Positions 583 through 16,438 are shown, counted from the first letter of the stretch. The stretch is DNA of 34,331 bases from a virus (IMGVR_UViG_3300022752_004974:1-34331); one strand, 5' to 3'. Numbers and translations: made by a program. Notes: a model not told the origin generated them from the sequence alone.

Positions 583-672
583 ATGATCGTAATTAGATCA
601 GCAAAAACTTGGAGCATCATAGCTGCCTTTCGAGACACACTCAGGCAGATGCGGATAGGGTGTGACACATGA
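583..672 (+). CDS. Array microprotein 1 (29 aa)
   Basis: GGGAGG lies 6-7 bases before ATG 583. The 29-residue product carries the array core as IIAAFRDTLRQMRIG: a hydrophobic helix, then a basic residue, Ile and a small residue. It is a shortened member that ends just after the core. It overlaps the next gene by ATGA. It is the first gene after the promoter at 532. Function unknown; the core and overlap support it as a real gene. Confidence 0.55.
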   Translation: MIVIRSAKTWSIIAAFRDTLRQMRIGCDT

Positions 673-773
673 AGTCAACTGATCGAAGACTGCCACCGCC
701 ACTTAACGCTAGAGCCTGGAGCATGGGACTGTTCGCAGTCACCCTCTCTAAGCTAGAGATAGTGCCATGGTGA
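669..773 (+). CDS. Array microprotein 2 (34 aa)
   Basis: Starts within the stop of the preceding gene (ATGA). The core GLFAVTLSKLEIVPW occupies the C-terminus, and a Pro/Arg-rich stretch precedes it. No clear SD is visible, so translation is probably coupled to the upstream gene. The stop overlaps the next start region by seven bases. Function unknown. Confidence 0.5.
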   Translation: MKSTDRRLPPPLNARAWSMGLFAVTLSKLEIVPW

Positions 774-895
774 GACAAGAAGAATTTCACTATAGAGGGA
801 GAAGGATAAGGTTTGAGACCTTGATCTACTTCTCCCGCACACTTCATGCTTTAAAGGTAACACCCTACAGACTGATGGGAGGAAACTATGGTTGA
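767..895 (+). CDS. Array microprotein 3 (42 aa)
   Basis: ATG 767 lies inside the end of the previous frame. A basic N-terminus is followed by the array core as TLIYFSRTLHALKVTPY and a short Gly-rich tail. Its last codons contain the SD (GGAGG) of the next small gene. Function unknown. Confidence 0.5.
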   Translation: MVRQEEFHYRGRRIRFETLIYFSRTLHALKVTPYRLMGGNYG

Positions 896-959
896 TATAC
901 TTGTCGTGTTTGCTGTGCTGTTCATAGCGGTAGCACTGAAAGAGATGGTTAGGGAGTAG
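888..959 (+). CDS. Tiny single-pass membrane protein (23 aa)
   Basis: ATG 888 has GGAGG seven bases upstream and overlaps the previous gene by eight bases. The product is one hydrophobic stretch, ILVVFAVLFIAVAL, followed by a charged tail, so it should lie in the inner membrane. It lacks the array core. At this length it could be chance, but the SD and the perfect hydrophobic segment support translation. Confidence 0.45.
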   Translation: MVDILVVFAVLFIAVALKEMVRE

Positions 960-1328
960 CTTTGTATTGAAAGTTAAGTGGAAACTGTTGGTCGGAGTGC
1001 GCTGCCCCCACCCCACCTCCGGAACCTGCCGGAACCGCACTTTGCCCCACTTCTTCTCCTTACTCTATCCCTATCCCTACTGTCTCTTCTCCCTCTATCC
1101 CTAGCTTAGCTCCATGCGTTTAGTCCTTCTCTTATATATCTCTTAGGACTAGTAGGAGAATTGGTTAGATTAGGGGTTTAGAGTTTAGATTTAGAGTTTT
1201 TATTAGTGGTAGGTATTTTAGGTATTGAGAGTATATTTAGGTTTTTGGTAGGTGGTAGAGATATTTTTAGGTCGGGGAGATGGTTGATATTGATGGATTT
1301 TTTGGTGGGGAGGGAGCGGAGATTTAAC
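960..1328. other. Non-coding gap with abrupt strand-composition switch; origin or promoter candidate
   Basis: I see no gene here. About 1005-1140 is strongly pyrimidine-rich on the + strand (repeats such as TATCCC TATCCC). From 1150 to 1272 there is not a single C in 123 bases, and only one more C up to 1316. The right half repeats TTTAG, TAGG and GGT-type words. Read outward from about 1145, both arms therefore present purine-rich, TAGGG-like strands. Such skew inversions mark replication origins, R-loop regions or divergent transcription starts. No function can be assigned from sequence alone. Confidence 0.5.
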
Positions 1329-1508
1329 ATGAGTGAATTTAAGCACTTATTAGGTGGGGAGAGTAGGGTCATAATCGGTGACTCGGAAACCGTCTTTCTT
1401 GGGTTCATGGTTAGACTCTATAAGCTCGGAGTGATTGAATGGGTGGATATAGAAGTTGCCGCCGATAGATTTGACGAAGTGAAAGCAAGACTAGTGTCGA
1501 GGATCTGA
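1329..1508 (+). CDS. Array microprotein 4 (59 aa)
   Basis: I chose ATG 1329, with CGGAG seven bases upstream. The frame stays open upstream to 1206, but that part is the C-free low-complexity tract and is unlikely to be coding. The core appears as VFLGFMVRLYKLGVIEW, followed by an acidic/basic C-terminal helix. It ends three bases before the next member. Function unknown. Confidence 0.65.
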   Translation: MSEFKHLLGGESRVIIGDSETVFLGFMVRLYKLGVIEWVDIEVAADRFDEVKARLVSRI

Positions 1509-1511
1509 GAG

Positions 1512-1643
1512 ATGGACGCATGGGGAAGCAAGCACGGATCGTACCCAGAGTACAAGGAGAAGAGAGCGACCTTGTTTCGGTTCTTCAACTCTGTCCTAAA
1601 GCTTAAGATCGTAGGTCCGAGATGGGTAGTTTTAGGGGATTGA
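1512..1643 (+). CDS. Array microprotein 5 (43 aa)
   Basis: Starts three bases after the preceding stop. The sequence has a polar Tyr/Lys N-terminus, then the canonical core LFRFFNSVLKLKIVGPRW and a very short tail. With the next gene it is among the clearest pairs of paralogues in the array (LFRFFNSVLKLKIVG against LFRFIDTIYHLRIVG). Function unknown. Confidence 0.65.
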   Translation: MDAWGSKHGSYPEYKEKRATLFRFFNSVLKLKIVGPRWVVLGD

Positions 1644-1647
1644 ACCT

Positions 1648-1779
1648 ATGCACAAGCAGAAGATGACCGACTTGTTTCGCTTCATTGACACCATCTACCA
1701 TCTGAGGATCGTAGGTGTGCAAGAGTATTTCGCAGGAGGTTTTCGAGTAAGCGGAGTACCGAGATGGAGGACATGGTGA
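1648..1779 (+). CDS. Array microprotein 6 (43 aa)
   Basis: ATG 1648 has AGGGG about nine bases upstream. A Lys-rich start is followed by the core LFRFIDTIYHLRIVGVQEY and a Gly/Arg/Trp tail. It has the same length as the preceding paralogue. The next gene begins 16 bases before its stop. Function unknown. Confidence 0.65.
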   Translation: MHKQKMTDLFRFIDTIYHLRIVGVQEYFAGGFRVSGVPRWRTW

Positions 1780-1940
1780 TATTCAAGAACAACAAGTTCG
1801 ATAGAAGCTACAGCACGAGGATTCTGCTGAGGTTCATGCTCACCGCTCGTAAGATGAGGATCCACGAGTGGGAGCTGCTAGAGCATCAGATCGAGTGGAA
1901 CGTTAGGCCGATGGAGTGGTATGACACTCGACGTATATAA
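1764..1940 (+). CDS. Array microprotein 7 (58 aa)
   Basis: I chose ATG 1764 (CGGAG seven bases upstream) over ATG 1773, whose SD would be too close. The core is ILLRFMLTARKMRIHEWEL, followed by a Trp- and Arg-rich tail. It overlaps its neighbours by 16 and 20 bases, too much for simple stop/start coupling. It is a real duplicated cassette by core match; function unknown. Confidence 0.65.
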   Translation: MEDMVIFKNNKFDRSYSTRILLRFMLTARKMRIHEWELLEHQIEWNVRPMEWYDTRRI

Positions 1941-2088
1941 GCGACAAAGACCCGACGTAGACAAGAGAAACACCTCCTTCAAGTTCTTCGACATCGTCTA
2001 CAAGATGGCGATAGTAGGAAGACTTGAGCTAACGATCGGCGTATGGAAGATAGCATACAACTGGAGGATGCACGACTATGATACGTGA
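1921..2088 (+). CDS. Array microprotein 8 (55 aa)
   Basis: ATG 1921 with GGAG four bases upstream, inside the end of the previous gene. A basic N-terminus is followed by the core SFKFFDIVYKMAIVGRLEL and a Trp-containing tail. The last 11 bases overlap the next gene. Function unknown. Confidence 0.65.
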   Translation: MTLDVYKRQRPDVDKRNTSFKFFDIVYKMAIVGRLELTIGVWKIAYNWRMHDYDT

Positions 2089-2242
2089 GAGGATTAGGGC
2101 AACCAAGGCCAAGCGCAAAAGGGACTTGCTCTTCAATCTTCTGTATGTCTTCTACAGAACTAGAATAGTAAGCGGCAGCGCGTACATATCCGGCTTACCG
2201 GTCATAAGACATCGCATGGCTTCAGGTAAATTGAGGTATTGA
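2078..2242 (+). CDS. Array microprotein 9 (54 aa)
   Basis: ATG 2078 with GGAGG ten bases upstream. The N-terminal 16 residues are strongly basic, then the core LLFNLLYVFYRTRIVSGSAY and a basic C-terminus. The high positive charge would suit RNA, DNA or membrane contact, but nothing in the sequence decides. Function unknown. Confidence 0.65.
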   Translation: MIRERIRATKAKRKRDLLFNLLYVFYRTRIVSGSAYISGLPVIRHRMASGKLRY

Positions 2243-2245
2243 GGT

Positions 2246-2392
2246 GTGGTTACGGATCTATATTCAGACAATCACAAAATGATGGTTCTATACGGTCTTC
2301 TTGGGCTTATGTACAAGATCGATGTCGTAAGCGAAGAAGATTTTGTCAACAGCTATTCTATCTTGGTAAGAGGGCGACGTGGATCTAAATAA
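2246..2392 (+). CDS. Array microprotein 10 (48 aa, GTG start)
   Basis: GTG 2246 has GAGG nine bases upstream; the later ATG codons at 2279 lack an SD. The core is VLYGLLGLMYKIDVVSEEDF and the tail is basic (RGRRGSK). The stop overlaps the next GTG start by 14 bases. Function unknown. Confidence 0.6.
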   Translation: MVTDLYSDNHKMMVLYGLLGLMYKIDVVSEEDFVNSYSILVRGRRGSK

Positions 2393-2609
2393 GATGCGGT
2401 CAATAAAGACCAGATTGGAAGAAGAGCAGTATACACAAAAAGTAGTCCACGAAGCCTACGCCCTGATAGATAAGAAAAGCAAACTACTGTTGATGATCCG
2501 TACCGTGGAGGAGATGAGAATCATCAGTGAGATCAGTTCAGAGGCTTTTTATCGTTACAGTAAAAAGATCGACGAACACACGCGTTTGATTCTTGAGGCT
2601 CTGAAATGA
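2379..2609 (+). CDS. Array microprotein 11 (76 aa, GTG start)
   Basis: GTG 2379 follows GAGGG; ATG 2394 is an alternative without a good SD. This longer member has an N-terminal charged helix before the core LLLMIRTVEEMRIISEISSE, then another charged helix, so it is probably all-alpha. ATGA overlap with the next gene. Function unknown. Confidence 0.7.
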   Translation: MDLNKMRSIKTRLEEEQYTQKVVHEAYALIDKKSKLLLMIRTVEEMRIISEISSEAFYRYSKKIDEHTRLILEALK

Positions 2610-2803
2610 TAGTACATAAGCTAAAGAAATCCCCGTCCGGAGGTGAGATCTTTGAACTCTGGAGAATGTTTCGACTCATGCACAAGGCTCGTGTAATAAG
2701 TTCCGTGGATTTTGTTTCCATGTCTACAGAGATGACGACAACGTGGCAAGCAGATAGAGCGCACGAAGAAGAACCTCAGCACGAGCAAAATAACAAGCAG
2801 TAA
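2606..2803 (+). CDS. Array microprotein 12 (65 aa)
   Basis: The start is inside the previous stop (ATGA) with GAGG upstream. The core is FELWRMFRLMHKARVISSVDF, preceded by a Lys/Ser/Gly stretch. The last 20 residues are a polar Glu/Gln/Asn tail of low complexity. Function unknown. Confidence 0.7.
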   Translation: MIVHKLKKSPSGGEIFELWRMFRLMHKARVISSVDFVSMSTEMTTTWQADRAHEEEPQHEQNNKQ

Positions 2804-2820
2804 GTATTGGAGAGATTTAC

Positions 2821-3186
2821 ATGCAGCGAGAGAAGATCGACTACATACTGGATACTTACCGAGCTTTCTGCTACTTCTATCCCGAAGACGTAGTAAAGGG
2901 CGTAGTGAACGGAGCGGGTCCGTCCGGTTATGGAAACTGGGTTCGCGATACGCTGTTCTACAAGTACTGTGTGACCGAGCCCGCAAACGTCCACGACTTC
3001 CTGTACTCCAAGTACGGTCCAAAAGACGTGTCTAGAAAAGATGCAGACGACTTCTTCTTGCTATACATGCTTATCAAGTTAGAGCAGCAAACTGAGATAT
3101 CGAAAGCTCTCAACCTGCCGTTGGTATATTCCTATTACTGGTCCGTAAGGGCTTTTGGTTGGTCTTTCTGGACGAAGAAGGGTTGA
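2821..3186 (+). CDS. Hypothetical 121-aa protein within the array
   Basis: GGAGAG stands upstream of ATG 2821. The protein is aromatic-rich and probably soluble. Near residues 76-92 the segment FFLLYMLIKLEQQTEIS resembles the array core but is followed by a longer C-terminus. It may be an enlarged member or an unrelated gene inserted in the array. A gene of ordinary length here argues that the surrounding tiny genes belong to a genuinely translated operon. Confidence 0.75.
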   Translation: MQREKIDYILDTYRAFCYFYPEDVVKGVVNGAGPSGYGNWVRDTLFYKYCVTEPANVHDFLYSKYGPKDVSRKDADDFFLLYMLIKLEQQTEISKALNLPLVYSYYWSVRAFGWSFWTKKG

Positions 3187-3348
3187 ATGCCGATGAGATC
3201 AGACAACAGAATACCGATGTCGGACCTTCATATTGGCAAGGTCATCTCGAGCGAGTGGATTAACGTGACAAGAGAAGCTCACGTGGAACTGATCAAGCAG
3301 AGATTCGTGATGTCTATGCGTAAGCTTAGGGTTGCTAACTTGCGATGA
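3187..3348 (+). CDS. Array microprotein 13 (53 aa)
   Basis: ATG 3187 follows directly on the stop of the 121-aa gene, with GAAGGG upstream. The core LIKQRFVMSMRKLRVANLR is at the very C-terminus. The N-terminal 30 residues are polar. Function unknown. Confidence 0.55.
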   Translation: MPMRSDNRIPMSDLHIGKVISSEWINVTREAHVELIKQRFVMSMRKLRVANLR

Positions 3349-3357
3349 TCTATCAAG

Positions 3358-3504
3358 ATGAGAGATGAAATGTGTAACGCCATAAGCAAGAAAAAGATCG
3401 AAGCGCTATCCGAGCTCATATTGTTGATATACTGGCTGCGCATATCCGAGAACAGACAATATTACACTAGCGCCCTTTGGCTCAAATCGTACATAGATTT
3501 TTAA
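3358..3504 (+). CDS. Array microprotein 14 (48 aa), last of the array
   Basis: ATG 3358, with only a weak SD. The core LSELILLIYWLRISENRQYY is well conserved and is followed by an aromatic tail. Base composition turns AT-rich directly after this gene, so it marks the right edge of the array. Function unknown. Confidence 0.55.
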   Translation: MRDEMCNAISKKKIEALSELILLIYWLRISENRQYYTSALWLKSYIDF

Positions 3505-3518
3505 TTGTAGGATGAAAC

Positions 3519-3812
3519 GTGACTAGATTTGCTATAATTATCGCTTCGATCTTCACAATGGCTTGTTCTCCTATGTTGCCTTCGTGGGTTCCGCTAGTTC
3601 AAGCAACCCTTCTTCAAAGAAGATACTTAAAAGACTTCTTGCGCAACAGGCCCGGAGTCAAGATAACAATTATCCCTTCGAAATTAGACCTAAAAACTAC
3701 TTGCTTTATTTCTGAGAAAGATGGAAGTCGAGAGTTAGCTTTGTCTCCATATATGACCAAGAGACAAGATGTGTATAAAGAAATCAAGATGTGCTTGAAC
3801 AAGAATTTTTGA
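3519..3812 (+). CDS. Putative lipoprotein, 97 aa (GTG start)
   Basis: GTG 3519 with AGGATG upstream. Residues 1-16 form a signal sequence ending in TMAC, a weak but plausible lipobox. The mature part is basic and ends in a short Cys-containing helix. It would be exported and possibly lipid-anchored in the host envelope. No family recognised. It is the first of about seven putative lipoprotein genes in the window. Confidence 0.65.
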   Translation: MTRFAIIIASIFTMACSPMLPSWVPLVQATLLQRRYLKDFLRNRPGVKITIIPSKLDLKTTCFISEKDGSRELALSPYMTKRQDVYKEIKMCLNKNF

Positions 3813-4138: not shown

Positions 4139-4768
4139 ATGAAGCGCAGTGATATATTTGTAGCGCTACTAGCTGCACTGATTAGTTGCAGTCCGATGAG
4201 ATCGCCTCCAGAGATACCGCATGAGATTCTGATTGAATTGCAGACAGACAAACAGACAATGTTCAATATGAATTCTCAAATTAACTGGAGTCTGGATGAC
4301 GATCTTAAAAGCCACACGAAGAACATGAAACCCGGAGAAACTTTACTGATCTACATCAAAAGCAACGGTGGCGGAGTTGATGCTGCAGAGAGCATCATAA
4401 ACACCATGAGCAGATTTAAGACTATCTGTGTCGCTGATACAGCTATGAGTGCCGCGTTTGAGATCTATCAATCTTGCACAGTGAGAGTTTATCTCGATAA
4501 AACTATACTTATGACACATCACCACTCAATATCATTCGGCAATGGAAGTATCTCCGTGGCCGAAGCTTTTATATCAAGCTTAGATGGTCTTATTCAAGAA
4601 ATCTATCTATTGAAGAGATCAGCAAACAGAATGGACATGACCTACGACGAATTGCTTAAAAAAATAGAAAAGAGCAAGGGAGAGTGGTATATCTATGGAA
4701 GGGATATTGTCGAATATCATGCTTCGGATTATCATATTAAAGATAGTCAGTTAAAGAAATTAAAGTAA
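4139..4768 (+). CDS. ClpP/SppA-fold serine protease-like lipoprotein (209 aa)
   Basis: I chose ATG 4139, after AGGAAG; an upstream TTG frame to 4055 overlaps another gene and has no SD. Residues 1-17 are a lipoprotein signal (LISC, Cys17). The ClpP/crotonase-fold signatures follow: SNGGG near 75-79 (oxyanion glycine strand), nucleophile candidate Ser104 in AMSAAF, and His127-129 in the MTHHH stretch. The third catalytic residue is not obvious. Known ClpP is cytoplasmic, so the export signal suggests an SppA-like or envelope role. The two other ClpP-fold genes in the window lie at 23314 and 24663. Confidence 0.8.
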   Translation: MKRSDIFVALLAALISCSPMRSPPEIPHEILIELQTDKQTMFNMNSQINWSLDDDLKSHTKNMKPGETLLIYIKSNGGGVDAAESIINTMSRFKTICVADTAMSAAFEIYQSCTVRVYLDKTILMTHHHSISFGNGSISVAEAFISSLDGLIQEIYLLKRSANRMDMTYDELLKKIEKSKGEWYIYGRDIVEYHASDYHIKDSQLKKLK

Positions 4769-5213: not shown

Positions 5214-5255
5214 TAAATAATCAGATTTGGCATGTTTTATTTAGCGAGGTGTTCA

Positions 5256-5708
5256 GTGACAAATACTGCATATAGTTTGCGAGTAGAATCAGCGCTAGAT
5301 CCGAGTTACACGCAATCTAATCCTCTGAACAATTACAGAAGATCCTCTAATGCAAATTCTAATGGTACATATCTAGTCGGCTGGATCAAGGCGACGTATA
5401 TCGAGCTTGCTGAATTGTTTGGAGAGGCCGAAGAAGCCGATGAGAATAAAATCTCAGGTCATTGGCGTTTTGTAGATGAAGATGGAAACGTGTTCACTCT
5501 ATATGATTGGAAGAAAACAAATCTATATGACTTTTCAAGTCCTTCCGTAGAAGAGTTTAGAAAATGCAACCTACCATCTACGTTTAACATTGGCGGTAAA
5601 GATAAAACTGAGTCGAACTGCAACTTCATGAGATGGTTGGAGACAAAACTGTATTGGCATAGAACAAACAAACTGACCAAGATGATACTTGGAGACAAGC
5701 ATGATTAG
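5256..5708 (+). CDS. Hypothetical protein, paralogue of the next gene (150 aa)
   Basis: I chose GTG 5256 (GAGG six bases upstream) over ATG 5232, which lacks an SD. The central part, GWIKATYIELAELFGEAEEA then WRFVDEDGNVFTLYDWK, resembles a domain seen in many phage hypothetical proteins. The C-terminus has NCNFMRWLETKLYW. The next gene shares GWVQA..TLVQVLG and CDFMRWLEEQLNW, so the two are tandem paralogues. No catalytic motif is visible. Function unknown. Confidence 0.8.
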   Translation: MTNTAYSLRVESALDPSYTQSNPLNNYRRSSNANSNGTYLVGWIKATYIELAELFGEAEEADENKISGHWRFVDEDGNVFTLYDWKKTNLYDFSSPSVEEFRKCNLPSTFNIGGKDKTESNCNFMRWLETKLYWHRTNKLTKMILGDKHD

Positions 5709-6231
5709 ATCATCTCTTTCAAAGAACTATCAAGTTAAATTTTTAGACACAGAATATTTCGTATTGCAGATGGAAGATTACAAGACCAAAATTTGGCATT
5801 TTTATCCAGACACAGGCAAACCTCACACAATGCTTGAAAGCATCACTGTTCTCGGCAGTGCGATAGACGCTAACAAGATTAGAATAAAGAGAGGTTGGGT
5901 TCAGGCTGATGAATCCACGCTGGTGCAAGTATTGGGACCTTGTGCAGTTACTCCAGCTTTCCATCCTTATTGTACGAATGCTAAAATCTGGCTGGTCCGT
6001 AGTAGCAAAGGTTATATATATAGCGTATTCAATGACGATGCTGTTAATGTTAATTCTACTCATGTTGATGATACTTTCGGCATAAGCTCTCTTAACTGGA
6101 AAGCAACACCGGACGGCAAATATGAAGACTATGAAAGCGCTAGCGACTATTGCGACTTCATGAGATGGCTGGAAGAGCAATTGAATTGGGCTAAAAGTAC
6201 AGAGCAGATAAAAATACTTTTAAACGCTTAA
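5701..6231 (+). CDS. Hypothetical protein, paralogue of the preceding gene (176 aa)
   Basis: ATG 5701 overlaps the previous stop and has GGAG six bases upstream; an upstream TTG at 5689 is not needed. It carries an extra N-terminal region of about 55 residues and then the same two blocks as its neighbour, ending CDFMRWLEEQLNWAKS. The middle has more divergence and extra Cys residues. Function unknown. Confidence 0.8.
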   Translation: MIRSSLSKNYQVKFLDTEYFVLQMEDYKTKIWHFYPDTGKPHTMLESITVLGSAIDANKIRIKRGWVQADESTLVQVLGPCAVTPAFHPYCTNAKIWLVRSSKGYIYSVFNDDAVNVNSTHVDDTFGISSLNWKATPDGKYEDYESASDYCDFMRWLEEQLNWAKSTEQIKILLNA

Positions 6232-6243
6232 ACAAGTAGAGAT

Positions 6244-6396
6244 ATGGATTTTACAGAAAAAACTACCTATCACTTGTATATCAGAGCAAAAATGTATATA
6301 ATGCTGCATCAGCTGAGAATATCATCTGACGGCAAATTTATGGGTTTTGCAAAAATGTCAAAGATAGTCTACGAATCATCTCTTTGCGGGTGTTGA
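6244..6396 (+). CDS. Outlying member of the array microprotein family (50 aa)
   Basis: ATG 6244 just after the paralogous pair; the SD is weak. The core YIRAKMYIMLHQLRISSDGKF matches the 583-3504 array (hydrophobic helix, Leu-Arg-Ile-Ser-Ser, aromatic). It lies in AT-rich DNA, which shows the family is dispersed and has taken on local composition. Function unknown. Confidence 0.6.
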   Translation: MDFTEKTTYHLYIRAKMYIMLHQLRISSDGKFMGFAKMSKIVYESSLCGC

Positions 6397-6534
6397 ATGA
6401 TTGATATTTTTTTACATCTTAATATAGCGATAACAATAATAGGTCTCGCTACTTTGACGGTTGAGTTCTTAGTAAAAAGAAAGAAAAGAAAAAATAAAGA
6501 ATACCTCGATAGTAAGTTTAAGGAGATTAAATGA
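6397..6534 (+). CDS. Small membrane protein with Lys/Arg-rich tail (45 aa)
   Basis: ATG directly follows the previous stop. One membrane helix (about residues 3-25) is followed by a basic tail (KRKKRKNK) and a short helix. It ends by ATGA overlap with a lipoprotein gene; its last codons hold the AAGGAG of that gene. Function unknown. Confidence 0.65.
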   Translation: MIDIFLHLNIAITIIGLATLTVEFLVKRKKRKNKEYLDSKFKEIK

Positions 6535-6791
6535 AAGTTGTTTTGTTTACCTTGCTGCTTATCAGTACTTCTTGCGCAACATCTGGATCCAAAAAACCAA
6601 CAGAAACATTAGATGCTTGTCCCATGAACTACGATCCACATCTTTGCCATCTGATAATAGATGAAGAAATGTTTACTGCATACGGCGAAAACAAATGCGT
6701 TGCTCTTAAAAATCTCAGAGAACTATTAGTTTCCAAGAACCACAACCCTGAATTGCTAAAAATTGTTAAATGCGGACCTGTGTATCAGTGA
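6531..6791 (+). CDS. Putative lipoprotein (86 aa)
   Basis: ATG 6531 with AAGGAG upstream. Signal peptide MKVVLFTLLLISTSC with Cys15 as the lipidation site. The mature part contains four more Cys, possibly two disulfides, which is consistent with life outside the cytoplasm. No family recognised. Confidence 0.75.
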   Translation: MKVVLFTLLLISTSCATSGSKKPTETLDACPMNYDPHLCHLIIDEEMFTAYGENKCVALKNLRELLVSKNHNPELLKIVKCGPVYQ

Positions 6792-6836: not shown

Positions 6837-7235
6837 ATGAATCAAAACATACTTGAAATATGTTGGATAGTTAATAAGAGAAACAAATGGGCAAAAGAAA
6901 GAAAGAAATTAAGAAACAAACACTATCGCTGCAAGATTAACAAAAAATCAACAGAAGAAACCAAAAATATTAAGTTAGAATTCAACAGGCACAATTATCT
7001 TAGAATTGTATTGAATCAGTATACTCGTAAATTAAAGCATCTCTTGAAACAAGAGAATCTTAAACTAATCAGCGATAAGAACGCCGGTTATTGCGCAATA
7101 GTTCCATCTGATGTGAATGTTCCTAACTTTCTCATAAAGCAAACACCGTGGGGGAAGTTTGACAAGGAACAAATAGCAAGTTTTGCAGTATCGTTTGAAG
7201 CTATGCTCGCGCTTGAAAAAATTGTAGGAGAGTAG
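6837..7235 (+). CDS. Hypothetical basic protein (132 aa)
   Basis: ATG 6837 is preferred (GGGAGG seven bases upstream) over the in-frame GTG 6822. The first 75 residues are a long, very basic helical region. The C-terminal half has a VPSDVNVPNFLIKQTPWGKF segment. Probably a nucleic-acid- or scaffold-binding protein by charge alone. Family not recognised. Confidence 0.75.
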   Translation: MNQNILEICWIVNKRNKWAKERKKLRNKHYRCKINKKSTEETKNIKLEFNRHNYLRIVLNQYTRKLKHLLKQENLKLISDKNAGYCAIVPSDVNVPNFLIKQTPWGKFDKEQIASFAVSFEAMLALEKIVGE

Positions 7236-7237
7236 TT

Positions 7238-7468
7238 ATGTCTTTTTGGTTGAATTTTGGATTCGATATATCAAAATACAGTATCGAATTAAATATGTTT
7301 ATTCCAAGTTTTGACTTTGTCTTAAAAAGAAATTTTGACAAAGGTATGTTTTGGTTTCAACTAGGTCCTTTTACTTTATGTGTAACCGATAATAAAAAGA
7401 TAAATGATTGGTTCGAGGCGAATTATCCGGTTAGGCATCAAAAAAGAAAAGAAGAGGGACAACAATGA
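7238..7468 (+). CDS. Hypothetical 76-aa protein
   Basis: AGGAG before ATG 7238; two bases after the previous gene. Aromatic-rich (WLNFGFD, FWFQLG) with alternating hydrophobics that suggest beta strands, and a basic C-terminus. The stop overlaps the next start. Function unknown. Confidence 0.75.
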   Translation: MSFWLNFGFDISKYSIELNMFIPSFDFVLKRNFDKGMFWFQLGPFTLCVTDNKKINDWFEANYPVRHQKRKEEGQQ

Positions 7469-7638: not shown

Positions 7639-7891
7639 AAATGACTATGATTGTATGTTGCACATGGAAAGGGGATTTGTAGAGATCGGAGCGTACAAAT
7701 TCAAAGCATCAGATGTTTTAAAGAAATGCAATCCAGTAGCATATCGTCAAGAGATAAATGATTTCATTAATAATCTATTAGAAGACGAAGATTTATTTGA
7801 GTTTAACAATAGATATTTTATAGAACCGATAATGTTTTTTGATGTGTTGAAAAAACTTAACATACATGATATTGGTGCCGAGGTTGTATGA
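7607..7891 (+). CDS. Hypothetical acidic protein (94 aa)
   Basis: ATG 7607 with AGAGGAAG just upstream, inside the end of the preceding frame. Acidic, probably alpha-helical, soluble. Stop overlaps the next lipoprotein start by ATGA. No family recognised. Confidence 0.7.
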   Translation: MSEEVTLEELENDYDCMLHMERGFVEIGAYKFKASDVLKKCNPVAYRQEINDFINNLLEDEDLFEFNNRYFIEPIMFFDVLKKLNIHDIGAEVV

Positions 7892-8286
7892 GAAAGATAT
7901 TAAACTTAACTTTCATAGGTCTCATTACTGCTTGTGGGATGGAGACTGAAGAAGATCGGATTTTAGCTGAAATCAAATCATATTCTAACGATCTGATAGA
8001 TAGTTGTCTAAACACTGAGCATAAAGAATTGTGCTCAAGTAAGACTATTACAGCAAAAATATTAGACAAACAAGAGGAGAAAAGTTGGAATAGTATTTGT
8101 TGGACCGAAGTCGATTTGACTTCCAGCGAAAAAGAGCAGAAATTCTATGTTGCAATTAGTGCAGCATATTTAAACATGGGAAATCGTAAATTATTAGTTC
8201 AAACAAAGATATACGAATGTTTAGTTTGGTTTCAAAATGTCCCTAATCTTTCTTTTTCCGAATTTGCTTCAGATTTAAAATTATAA
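7888..8286 (+). CDS. Putative lipoprotein (132 aa)
   Basis: ATGA overlap. Signal peptide with a good lipobox ITAC (Cys16), then a mature domain with several Cys and an aromatic core. It would sit in the host envelope. A motif-bearing leader follows, so this is the last gene of its unit. Function unknown. Confidence 0.75.
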   Translation: MRKILNLTFIGLITACGMETEEDRILAEIKSYSNDLIDSCLNTEHKELCSSKTITAKILDKQEEKSWNSICWTEVDLTSSEKEQKFYVAISAAYLNMGNRKLLVQTKIYECLVWFQNVPNLSFSEFASDLKL

Positions 8287-8369: not shown

Positions 8370-8888
8370 ATGTCATTTTCACAGCGAGAAGCAGTTTTTA
8401 ACGCAACCATGGAAGTTCTACAGAAAGCGGGAATTGAGTTTGTTCCAGGCAAAACTGTGATCCATGATGTTGTAACAAAAGAACATCGTGCTCAAATTCT
8501 AGAAATTGTAACTAATATGTTCTCAGCTGGTCAGGTTTCTTTTTCAGACAGCGCTGCAAATCAGAAAAAGTTGTCAGATAGGTCTGAGTTGCGAAAATAT
8601 GTGTCTGGTCTTGTTTCCAACTGGCATAACAAAGACAAGTCTCTTAATGCTGGCCAAACTTATCAAGCAAAAACCCCAGGATCTCGGCAAGGATCTGGAG
8701 ATCCAGAGTTGAAGGAGTTGCGCCTACTTCGTAAAGCCTTGCTCGAACGAGGTGCCGACACAAAATCAATCTCGTCAGTAGACGAAGCGATCGAGGCTCG
8801 TCAGCAGCAACTTGGTCAGACAAAGAAAGTTAAAACGAATGTAAATACAGAGCTTCTACCAGAAGAGCTTCGTGCGTTGCTTGGGTAA
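8370..8888 (+). CDS. Conserved large-phage hypothetical protein (172 aa)
   Basis: AAGGAG before ATG 8370. The block LRKYVSGLVSNWHNKDKSLN, followed by a QAKTPGSRQGSGD linker and ELKELRLLRKALLE, matches my memory of a family found in large phages (no named function). The N-terminus is helical; the C-terminus has a coiled-coil-like region and ends LLPEELRALLG. Likely soluble and expressed in quantity given its SD. Confidence 0.8.
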   Translation: MSFSQREAVFNATMEVLQKAGIEFVPGKTVIHDVVTKEHRAQILEIVTNMFSAGQVSFSDSAANQKKLSDRSELRKYVSGLVSNWHNKDKSLNAGQTYQAKTPGSRQGSGDPELKELRLLRKALLERGADTKSISSVDEAIEARQQQLGQTKKVKTNVNTELLPEELRALLG

Positions 8889-8930
8889 AGTATAAAGACT
8901 CATGGACGAGTCCTCTATTTGGGAATAGAT

Positions 8931-12331: not shown

Positions 12332-12556
12332 GTGAATAATGAGCTTAAAGCTAAATTCGCAGAAGCAATCTCTGTTATGTCTTACTACAATGCGGCAGAG
12401 TACCCAATGTGGGGAGTTGAGACTAAAAAAAGAGAAGCTGCTCAAATAAAACTTCGTAGTCTATATCAGCAAATGATTAAAGAGTTTGGTCATAAAGAAA
12501 CAAATGAATATCTTTCATCGTTGCCCCGACTTATTGGAAGCGAGGATCTCGAATGA
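12332..12556 (+). CDS. Hypothetical 74-aa protein (GTG start)
   Basis: AGGAG about seven bases before GTG 12332. Predicted helical and soluble, with a PMWGVETKKREAAQIKL middle. ATGA overlap with the following gene. Function unknown. Confidence 0.75.
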   Translation: MNNELKAKFAEAISVMSYYNAAEYPMWGVETKKREAAQIKLRSLYQQMIKEFGHKETNEYLSSLPRLIGSEDLE

Positions 12557-12762
12557 GTTCGCCCAATGAATTTTTTCTTGGTAGACTTTCAAAAACATAT
12601 GCGGCTACTTATTCTTGTAAATTAATTTTTTCATTGATTGATATGAAGATACTTTCTAAACAAGATATGTGGCTGTTGGATGATTTTAAACATAAAATAT
12701 ATAGCTCGAAAATAAGTCGGACTTTGCGAGACGAGAATGCAAAAAAGATACATGAGCATTGA
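12553..12762 (+). CDS. Outlying member of the array microprotein family (69 aa)
   Basis: ATGA overlap with the preceding gene. The core TYSCKLIFSLIDMKILSKQDMW matches the array pattern (hydrophobic helix, Lys-Ile-Leu-Ser, aromatic), with a basic C-terminal extension. The gene overlaps the next, shorter relative by 11 bases. Function unknown. Confidence 0.65.
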   Translation: MSSPNEFFLGRLSKTYAATYSCKLIFSLIDMKILSKQDMWLLDDFKHKIYSSKISRTLRDENAKKIHEH

Positions 12763-12859
12763 TGTTTATAATCCATACTTTAAAAATACAAGCTTGAAAC
12801 CTTGGGTTTGGTTGCGTTTTTTAAAGAGCCTTGAATCACTAGAGATAATGAAACTATGA
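12752..12859 (+). CDS. Short relative of the array microproteins (35 aa)
   Basis: ATG 12752 inside the end of the previous gene. The C-terminus WVWLRFLKSLESLEIMKL matches the core and then stops, like array member 1. ATGA overlap with the downstream lipoprotein gene. Function unknown. Confidence 0.5.
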   Translation: MSIDVYNPYFKNTSLKPWVWLRFLKSLESLEIMKL

Positions 12860-13164
12860 AAAAAATTATGCAGATTTTATACATACTAACCACGGGCTGT
12901 GCGACAGTAAAAATTCCAATCGATGAAAAGTCCAAGCTTGCTAGATACAAAAATGGAGACTGCTTGATGCTGATCGATCCAACCCATGGAGTTGCTAGTT
13001 CTAGACATAGAGTAAGAATAGAAAAGGTAGAACAAGAATTGAGAAAATATTCTTACAGATGGCTGTTGGATACTGGAAAATGGGATTCTGAATTGTCGCA
13101 GGGAGTTGGTCGATTTGATCTCTTAGAAAAGATAACGGTTAAGGTTTATGATTGTCCAAAGTAG
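12856..13164 (+). CDS. Putative lipoprotein (102 aa)
   Basis: ATGA overlap. Signal peptide ending TTGC (Cys15). The mature domain is charged, contains a GDCLMLIDPTHG segment and probably a beta-sandwich-like pattern. Family not recognised. It is the last protein gene before the tRNA. Confidence 0.75.
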   Translation: MKKIMQILYILTTGCATVKIPIDEKSKLARYKNGDCLMLIDPTHGVASSRHRVRIEKVEQELRKYSYRWLLDTGKWDSELSQGVGRFDLLEKITVKVYDCPK

Positions 13165-13744: not shown

Positions 13745-13932
13745 GAAAAGAAGATCTGTGCATCAGCATTCACTTTGATGAAGAAGAAAACAAATGGATC
13801 GGATCTGCAACATCCAGCGCCAATTACACTCCATTTTATAAACAAATGACAACATTTGAAATATCTGCAGAATCTAAAATATCTGTGCTAGATTGCTTGA
13901 TCAATCTTCTAAAACAAATAGACATAGAGTGA
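13735..13932 (+). CDS. Hypothetical 65-aa protein (GTG start)
   Basis: GTG 13735 with GGAG five bases upstream, overlapping the deaminase end. An N-terminal beta-hairpin-like part (ISIHFDEEENKWIGSA) and a C-terminal helix give a shape reminiscent of HicB-type domains, but I see no partner toxin and do not assign it. Function unknown. Confidence 0.65.
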   Translation: MRVRKEDLCISIHFDEEENKWIGSATSSANYTPFYKQMTTFEISAESKISVLDCLINLLKQIDIE

Positions 13933-13933
13933 A

Positions 13934-13962
13934 TTTCGATTCTGTCGAATCCCAAGGGGGTT
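13934..13962 (+). promoter_or_regulatory. TTTCGATTCT motif with SD hairpin
   Basis: The motif (13934-13943) starts one base after a stop codon. AATCCC (13948-13953) pairs with GGGGTT (13957-13962), covering the SD of the gene at 13965. The motif's own GATTC can instead pair with GAATC (13047 bases into the line: 13947-13951), giving two exclusive folds. Confidence 0.5.
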
Positions 13963-13964
13963 TT

Positions 13965-14360
13965 ATGGAGCTAGCAAAAGACTGCCAAATATCAATTGCT
14001 AAAGTTGAGGTTGAAAATATCTCATTAATCCTTGGCATCGCCGATAAAGAAGTTATTGAATCAATGCTTATTCAAATCGGATCTATGGTGAAAAACTTAA
14101 AACCCAAGTTTGAAAATCAAAAATCATTTCATAAAACTTTTTACATTTCTAATCAAAATAAAAATATTCACTTCAAACTAAAAGCAGTATTCCACATCAG
14201 ATGGTGGAGAAATATAGATAAAGAAAAAATACAGTTAGTACTTGTCTCCTCGCCTCAAGGTGTTACTAAAAAATATGTATTCAATTGTAAAGACATACAG
14301 AGCAGTATTGATACTTACTTAGAAAAAAGTATATTTGGAGAATCAAATGTTAAAGAATAA
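13965..14360 (+). CDS. Hypothetical 131-aa protein
   Basis: ATG 13965 with a GGGGG SD; the upstream TTG at 13893 would run through the preceding gene and the motif. Mixed alpha/beta, with a basic middle (HIRWWRNIDKEKIQ). Not recognised. It overlaps the metalloprotease gene by 14 bases. Confidence 0.75.
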   Translation: MELAKDCQISIAKVEVENISLILGIADKEVIESMLIQIGSMVKNLKPKFENQKSFHKTFYISNQNKNIHFKLKAVFHIRWWRNIDKEKIQLVLVSSPQGVTKKYVFNCKDIQSSIDTYLEKSIFGESNVKE

Positions 14361-15650: not shown

Positions 15651-15961
15651 TGTCTAAGATTAAAAATTCTAATTTCGTAAATATTCAAGTAAAGACAAAA
15701 GATTTTTTTGAGCTTACGCGATCCAATATTCACGACATGGGTGAAGAAAAAACAATTGTAAGACTGGTTGACGGAGATAGGATTTTAAGAACATTCAAAG
15801 GTATAGAGGCAAAAAGTGCAATAGTATCTTTAGCTTTAGATTCAAATGGTCGGGTTTTTCTAAGAAACATAGATGATTTACTTAGAACAGTAAAGGATAT
15901 TAGATTTTGGAATAATAAAAAAATGTTTTCTGATAAAAAGAGAGGTTTTGTAAATGGATAA
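15650..15961 (+). CDS. Hypothetical 103-aa protein
   Basis: ATG 15650 (GGGGAG seven bases upstream) is preferred to GTG 15647. It overlaps the previous stop. Basic, probably beta-rich (KTIVRLVDGDRILRTFKGI). The stop overlaps the next gene by eight bases. Function unknown. Confidence 0.75.
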   Translation: MSKIKNSNFVNIQVKTKDFFELTRSNIHDMGEEKTIVRLVDGDRILRTFKGIEAKSAIVSLALDSNGRVFLRNIDDLLRTVKDIRFWNNKKMFSDKKRGFVNG

Positions 15962-16193
15962 AGAAAAATTAACTAATATAGTAATCAACTTTTGGAAAAA
16001 GCTGATACTAGAAAAAATGGGAATGTTTTTATTAATAGATGGAATGACATCTCTCTTTTTCTTTATTTTTTTTAACGCAAATGTTTCTGTATTGTTAATA
16101 GTCTTTTTAAGTGGAATACCCAAATATATAGCTGGAGCGTTGGCTGGAGCTAAGTGTTTGTATTCATCAATCGATGAGGCATTTAAACAATGA
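15954..16193 (+). CDS. Two-helix membrane protein, holin candidate (79 aa)
   Basis: ATG 15954. Two hydrophobic segments (about residues 23-44 and 45-68) are separated by only a couple of polar residues, and the ends are charged. Size and topology match class II holins, and a lytic transglycosylase is encoded at 27140. No sequence signature proves it. Overlaps the next gene by ATGA. Confidence 0.65.
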   Translation: MDKEKLTNIVINFWKKLILEKMGMFLLIDGMTSLFFFIFFNANVSVLLIVFLSGIPKYIAGALAGAKCLYSSIDEAFKQ

Positions 16194-16438
16194 TAACAAC
16201 TCTAATACATACTTTTACTATAGCAATGAGTAGCCCATATTCTGCTGATGTTTCTCTTCATTTAGAGAGGTGTACAAATCCAACTATAAACATTCAACCA
16301 ATTAAACCGATCATATCTTTAAAATGCGACAATTATCAACTTACTGTCAACTGTGCTGATAAGCAAAAAACAATAAAATCTCTAATAAATAAAGAAAATA
16401 TTTATCTGGGACATATTGAGTGTAGAAAGGCAAGGTGA
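16190..16438 (+). CDS. Putative exported protein (82 aa)
   Basis: ATGA overlap. The N-terminus (MITTLIHTFTIAMSSPYSA) resembles a short signal peptide. The mature part has five Cys and small beta-like segments. It sits between two membrane proteins, so an envelope role (for example spanin or holin regulation) is imaginable but not shown. Confidence 0.6.
   Translation: MITTLIHTFTIAMSSPYSADVSLHLERCTNPTINIQPIKPIISLKCDNYQLTVNCADKQKTIKSLINKENIYLGHIECRKAR

Follow-up and report, generated by a model that had tools for sequence, protein, structure and literature searches.

Taking the layout of reading frames, profile searches and substitution patterns together, we conclude with high confidence that a genuine, selected and previously unnamed family of phage microproteins exists, represented by a tandem array at positions 583-3504 of the virus record IMGVR_UViG_3300022752_004974:1-34331. 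The window analysed is this whole record of 34,331 bp, which belongs to a large, uncultured tailed phage. The array members share one short core, with the consensus [LF][LIF]x[LTV]L[YHR][KR]L[GKR][VIL][IVL][STD], and look like hypervariable two-helix microproteins that are under selection and would be translated in infected cells.

Open reading frames (ORFs) on the + strand overlap or abut over 583-959 and over 1329-3504. In the second block, a chain of 12 + strand ORFs of at least 40 amino acids (aa) spans 2143 of 2176 nt (98.5%), a coverage reached by none of 300 dinucleotide shuffles (mean 678 nt, maximum 1727); chained ORFs on the minus strand cover 915 nt. All but one of these 12 tiling ORFs carry the core, the exception being 2821-3186. 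Codons at the conserved positions are nearly random, pairs encoding the same amino acid sharing a codon in 43% of cases against 37% expected from codon usage, and no long DNA repeats are present in the array; the constraint therefore acts mainly on the protein. No Rfam match was found in the array. Its codon-usage score is an uninformative measure, since even the ClpP-like gene of the window scores negative. The description of the cassette as promoter-led, made in an earlier note on this sequence, is not supported, the six promoter-like sites ahead of it comparing with a shuffle mean of 7.9. The gap between the two blocks (960-1328), possibly regulatory, is first rich in C and T, with diverged 30-bp repeats at 1045-1103, and then rich in G and T.

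Leave-one-out hidden Markov models (HMMs) of 14 members, run against six-frame hits of the window, mostly placed the left-out ORF right behind the training members; they were weak for, or missed, the members starting at 583, 669, 767, 2078, 3187 and 3358. An HMM trained on 20 members of other phages (the cross-phage HMM) placed the array ORFs at ranks 1-6, 9, 10, 11, 12, 14, 16, 19 and 31 among the 473 ORFs of the window (Mann-Whitney P = 3.5e-11, a partly circular value, as the training members had first been recognised by window-derived models). At 5 bits or more it recovered 10 of the 23 + strand ORFs in the array, none of the 28 minus strand ORFs there and 2 of the 422 ORFs elsewhere in the window. 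Tiling, leave-one-out and cross-phage ranking thus confirm the proposed run of short, overlapping + strand genes with a common core, most of which are indeed shorter than the usual gene-calling length.

All members in the window lie on the + strand, and the ranks given here are those of the cross-phage HMM. The first block holds a 29-aa member at 583-672 (short, C-terminal core AAFRDTLRQMRIG; rank 16), a 34-aa member at 669-773 (LFAVTLSKLEIV; rank 9), a 42-aa member at 767-895 (IYFSRTLHALKVT; rank 5) and a doubtful 23-aa ORF at 888-959, which ranks 19 at only 3.0 bits. The second block opens with the member at 1329-1508 (59 aa from its ATG, LGFMVRLYKLGVIE; rank 4), followed by those at 1512-1643 (43 aa, FRFFNSVLKLKIVG; rank 11), 1648-1779 (43 aa, FRFIDTIYHLRIVG; rank 3), 1764-1940 (58 aa, LRFMLTARKMRIHE; rank 6), 1921-2088 (55 aa, FKFFDIVYKMAIVG; rank 12), 2078-2242 (54 aa, FNLLYVFYRTRIVS; rank 2), 2246-2392 (48 aa, GTG start, YGLLGLMYKIDVVSEEDF; rank 10), 2379-2609 (76 aa, GTG start, LLMIRTVEEMRIIS; rank 14) and 2606-2803 (65 aa, WRMFRLMHKARVISSVDF; rank 1). 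The next gene, at 2821-3186 on the same strand, encodes a 121-aa DUF1353-like protein (phrog_1158, E = 1.7e-6; phrog_6098, E = 1.2e-5; Pfam PF07087, E = 0.0072, below the cut-off) and is a neighbour within the array rather than a member, scoring only 1.1 bits with the family model. The array closes with a weak 53-aa member at 3187-3348 (QRFVMSMRKLRVA at its C-terminus; rank 31) and a 48-aa member at 3358-3504 (SELILLIYWLRISE), which scores well in window-trained models (16.5 bits with the combined model) despite its cross-phage rank of 117. Within the range given previously, 2821-3186 is thus no member, 888-959 is doubtful and 3358-3504 is weak across phages. Likewise, the claim that the flanks differ completely stands for most members and fails for those at 1512, 1648 and 1921, which are close paralogues (pairwise phmmer E of about 1e-5). 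Beyond the array, a further member occurs at 6244-6396 (50 aa, KMYIMLHQLRISS; rank 25, 18.2 bits with the combined model) and a likely one at 12553-12762 (69 aa, CKLIFSLIDMKILSKQD; rank 7, 8.4 bits).

The core is internal in the ORF, a median of 20 variable residues preceding it. Leu occupies 83% of the positions before x-[VIL] and 71% of those three residues earlier, Lys or Arg 64% of those just before and Val, Ile or Leu 95% of those after. AlphaFold2 with the family alignment modelled two members, 1329-1508 and 1648-1779, each as two helices around a tight turn, with a mean predicted local distance difference test (pLDDT) score of 78.8 for the first (93-95 in the core, 58 residues modelled) and 79.7 for the second (80-91 in the core); Foldseek gave no match to the predicted hairpin below E 0.001 in the PDB. 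The members are mildly basic (median charge +2, some acidic), and transmembrane segments are rare, 5% exceeding a Kyte-Doolittle (KD) hydropathy of 1.6. On these models, they are probably small soluble two-helix hairpins in which an amphipathic helix 1 ending in [YHR][KR]L is followed by a tight turn, x-[IV]-[IV]-[STDG], and usually by a second helix, the whole being flanked by variable arms at both termini.

The family recurs in related phages. The nearest relatives of the window are three uncultured contigs, G001 (57 kb), G002 (135 kb) and G003 (69 kb), with NrdB proteins 82-89% identical, and in G002 and G003 three small core-bearing ORFs adjoin homologues of the window gene at 8370-8888. 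This gene, syntenic with the family and unrelated to it, was used to fetch further relatives, about 40 in all, yielding loci L125-L135 in a first scan and 47 loci, most of them new, in a second. Loci L128/L129 (contigs G047/G048) and L132/L135 (G054) contain many members, often in arrays, such as six in a row at 10576-11577 of L128 and the groups at 13812-14347, 15845-16358 and 17127-17840 of L132; L196 (IMGVR_UViG_2623620416_000002) has a few weak core matches (6-7 bits). In a prospective test on the new loci, a model from the window and G002 reached at least 10 bits in 18 of 6177 ORFs, against 3 of 12330 control ORFs, and the combined model at least 12 bits in 26 of 6177, against 1 of 12330, which amounts to a 12- to 52-fold enrichment and bears out the expectation that a profile search would find the core conserved in related phages. 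This test is cleaner than the cross-phage ranking, as the loci were fetched via an unrelated gene and the controls were never in training; its remaining weakness is that the controls differ from the test loci in phylogeny and base composition. A few of the new loci are near-copies of G047/G048 (e.g. L187), which makes the counts partly dependent. With iteration, the number of candidate ORFs rose to about 150 (median length 55 aa), in 41 loci and at a threshold passed by 4 of 12330 control ORFs, a total that is an estimate because the model had learned from its own hits. Relatives fetched by NrdA from outside the G001-G003 clade, which served as controls, had no clear members, and single-protein tblastn searches against 50,697 phage records gave nothing significant.

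Selection could be assessed between G047 and G048, which are 99.3-99.6% identical over long stretches but have diverged in a stretch of about 7 kb containing the array. Four orthologous array members are 55-84% identical at the amino acid level, with ratios of nonsynonymous to synonymous substitution rates (dN/dS) of 0.39, 0.24, 0.30 and 0.20. The frames are thus under purifying selection in the testable orthologues of these related phages, as the earlier note had proposed to check, and this in turn is evidence for translation; no relative near enough to the window was found for dN/dS on its own array. One array member is present in G047 and missing from G048, and the last members of the two arrays have only the C-terminal core (FxTLxRLGLDIVKY) in common, their N-termini being unrelated. 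Such gain, loss and swapping of ends speak for fast turnover. Slots for members are conserved: G002 and G047 both have a core ORF between a gene of 84-88 aa and the endolysin gene, and two more after an HNH gene; G046 lacks a core ORF at the endolysin slot, where its 88-aa gene directly adjoins the endolysin gene. The residents of such slots in G002 and G047 often cannot be recognised as closest pairs, which would be expected of members that have been exchanged or have diverged strongly. Between the otherwise 99.9% identical contigs L133 and L135, a 160-bp deletion (position 13839 in L133, 13839-13999 in L135) fuses two array members within the core, with a frameshift; it may be a real event or an assembly collapse and was not used as evidence.

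What the members do is a more tentative matter. The reading we favour, to which we would give somewhat less than even chances, is that they are small binding inhibitors for host takeover or counter-defence, the hairpin being the common docking or folding unit. It is prompted by the blocks of small genes, by their rapid turnover and by the precedent of tifA amplification in phage T4 (see below). The genes are short, overlapping or abutting, and mostly on one strand within an array, and they are probably translationally coupled. Arrays would grow, shrink and exchange ends through recombination while the frames stay under purifying selection; the shared hairpin would supply the fold and might dock either on a single shared partner or on fellow members of the family; and the variable arms would determine what gets blocked or redirected, making the array a kit of such inhibitors. 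An arms race would fit the rapid diversification, the swapped N-termini and the gain and loss of members, and a takeover or anti-defence role is compatible with it, though unproven. Several observations weigh against this proposal. The diverged block of G047/G048 holds other genes too, so hypervariability extends beyond the family. Two close relatives, G001 (a 57-kb fragment) and G046 (a 34-kb fragment), give few hits, so that the clade can do without the family, and Myxococcus phage Mx1, the closest cultured phage found, has no member above threshold. Recognition of members relied in part on iterative models, and some of the weak ones could be chance matches.

Two further readings strike us as unlikely, to about the same degree. 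The first is a modular binder kit, in which one hairpin core is carried by at least 10 paralogues per phage and recombining arms would each neutralise a different host protein. According to the second, each member is a small regulator, or an adaptor subunit, of machinery belonging to phage or host (RNA polymerase or replication proteins, for example), and diversification served timing rather than an attack on defences. Many of the phage proteins that bind RNA polymerase are small and helical, a type to which these small, mildly basic, soluble hairpins within small-gene blocks conform; the gain, loss and end-swapping seen between near-identical phages nevertheless exceed what is expected of core regulators, and member numbers vary widely among relatives. 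Less probable still is that the core serves as an address tag for proteins packaged in the virion and injected, the hairpin docking on the head core or scaffold and the arms forming the cargo. The short common core, diverged remainder and array layout do resemble the T4 internal proteins with their capsid targeting sequences (PMC9026906), and the window has a ClpP-like or head-maturation-protease-like gene; against this, the T4 tag is N-terminal and cut off, whereas the core follows some 20 variable residues and is predicted to be folded, and in G054, a relative of complete size, the members are mostly encoded on the other strand from the structural genes. We consider it very improbable that the members are membrane-active amphipathic peptides for lysis or superinfection exclusion: an amphipathic helix 1 and one conserved slot that directly overlaps the start of the endolysin gene in G002 and G047 favour it, yet few members exceed the transmembrane hydropathy threshold, most lie far from lysis genes and some are acidic. 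That there is no family, only a chance likeness between hydrophobic ORFs, or else an element at the DNA or RNA level in which frames happen to stay open, is hardly credible, for although the motif is short and hydrophobic and control phages give occasional hits, this is contradicted by the tiling and codon tests, the cross-phage ranking, the prospective enrichment and the dN/dS values, and by an array devoid of long DNA repeats and Rfam matches.

If the members are inhibitors for takeover or counter-defence, the arrays would mark where uncultured phages keep small inhibitors of bacterial functions and how fast these turn over; a modular binder kit would be a viral counterpart of diversified repertoires. 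Gain, loss and reshuffling of this kind form a pattern common in genes used against bacterial hosts. The conserved core, as a profile HMM, provides a handle for finding members and poses the question of the hairpin's binding partner.

The phage itself encodes a class Ia ribonucleotide reductase, thymidylate synthase, DNA ligase, an ATPase, ClpP-like and head-maturation-protease-like proteins, a collagen-like tail fibre and a tRNA-Ile. Mx1 is the closest cultured phage by NrdB, and also when the portal protein of G054, a more distant relative, is compared. Small predicted lipoproteins, with a short hydrophobic leader followed by Cys, are encoded at 3519-3812, 4139-4768, 6531-6791, 7888-8286 and 12856-13164, one of them ClpP-like; the presence of several such predicted genes suggests a Gram-negative host. 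The adjoining genes at 5232-5708 and 5689-6231 have similar C-termini (FMRWLE..L.W......K..L) and are perhaps a second tandem paralogue pair. The gene at 8370-8888 belongs to a second unnamed family of about 165 aa with the motif NW-x-[RN]K...NPGSR-x-G, found in about 40 viral loci with up to three copies per phage in the same region (L132 at 10001, 11031 and 12412; L125 at 2066, 3315 and 10001; L028 at 6861-7376 and 8413-8907). It has no match in PHROGs or Pfam, and no bacterial genome with such a gene was found. Scans with the single window proteins 2821, 5689 or 8370 gave no relatives, unlike an alignment of 8370 proteins, which did retrieve them.

In agreement with the earlier note, the microprotein family has no significant relative in Pfam, PHROGs, NCBIfam or PDB sequences. 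That the first three libraries lack it, although some 40 phage loci together hold about 150 candidate copies, is explained by the tendency of gene callers to skip genes so short. No known anti-defence or toxin-inhibitor family was matched in PHROGs, where the best match (0.0025) was to families of unknown function, and publications on tandem phage microprotein families contained none on the present one, in a coverage without most subscription journals. The best profile match among PDB sequences, to viral FLIP death-effector domains, reached only E 0.22 and was treated as chance. A winged-helix or helix-turn-helix DNA-binding domain is not supported, both modelled members having only two long helices and no third (recognition) helix after them, and the median ORF having 55 aa. 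The SHOCT domain (PF09851), the nearest look-alike, is likewise a short two-helix hairpin with L..L....GvIT..EF-like spacing, to which several members are similar by eye and the AlphaFold2 models conform, shape alone not being specific. Unlike SHOCT, the family has a hydrophobic position, mostly Leu, before x-[IV], and its core is not confined to the C-terminus; SHOCT was also rejected by profile, with matches at E 10 or better in none of 5 phages and in 13 of 14 control genomes. The closest parallels in organisation come from T4. Its internal head proteins (IPI, IPII and IPIII) are likewise small, share one short stretch while the rest differs, and vary between related phages; IPI is a counter-restriction protein, and their capsid targeting sequence is an N-terminal, cleaved stretch of 10 residues (PMC9026906). 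In the present family, the common stretch is an internal, predicted folded hairpin rather than such a tag, and the likeness is one of pattern only. The anti-toxin-antitoxin island of T4 (dmd, tifA, adfA) is, like the array, a cluster of small phage genes, with no sequence relation to the family seen in PHROGs. T4 overcomes toxIN by segmental amplification of the toxin inhibitor gene tifA of this island, whose copy number rises through recombination under selection (PMC9391042). The T4 island combines unrelated neighbouring genes with identical amplified copies, whereas the arrays described here contain up to 14 diverged paralogues built on one core.

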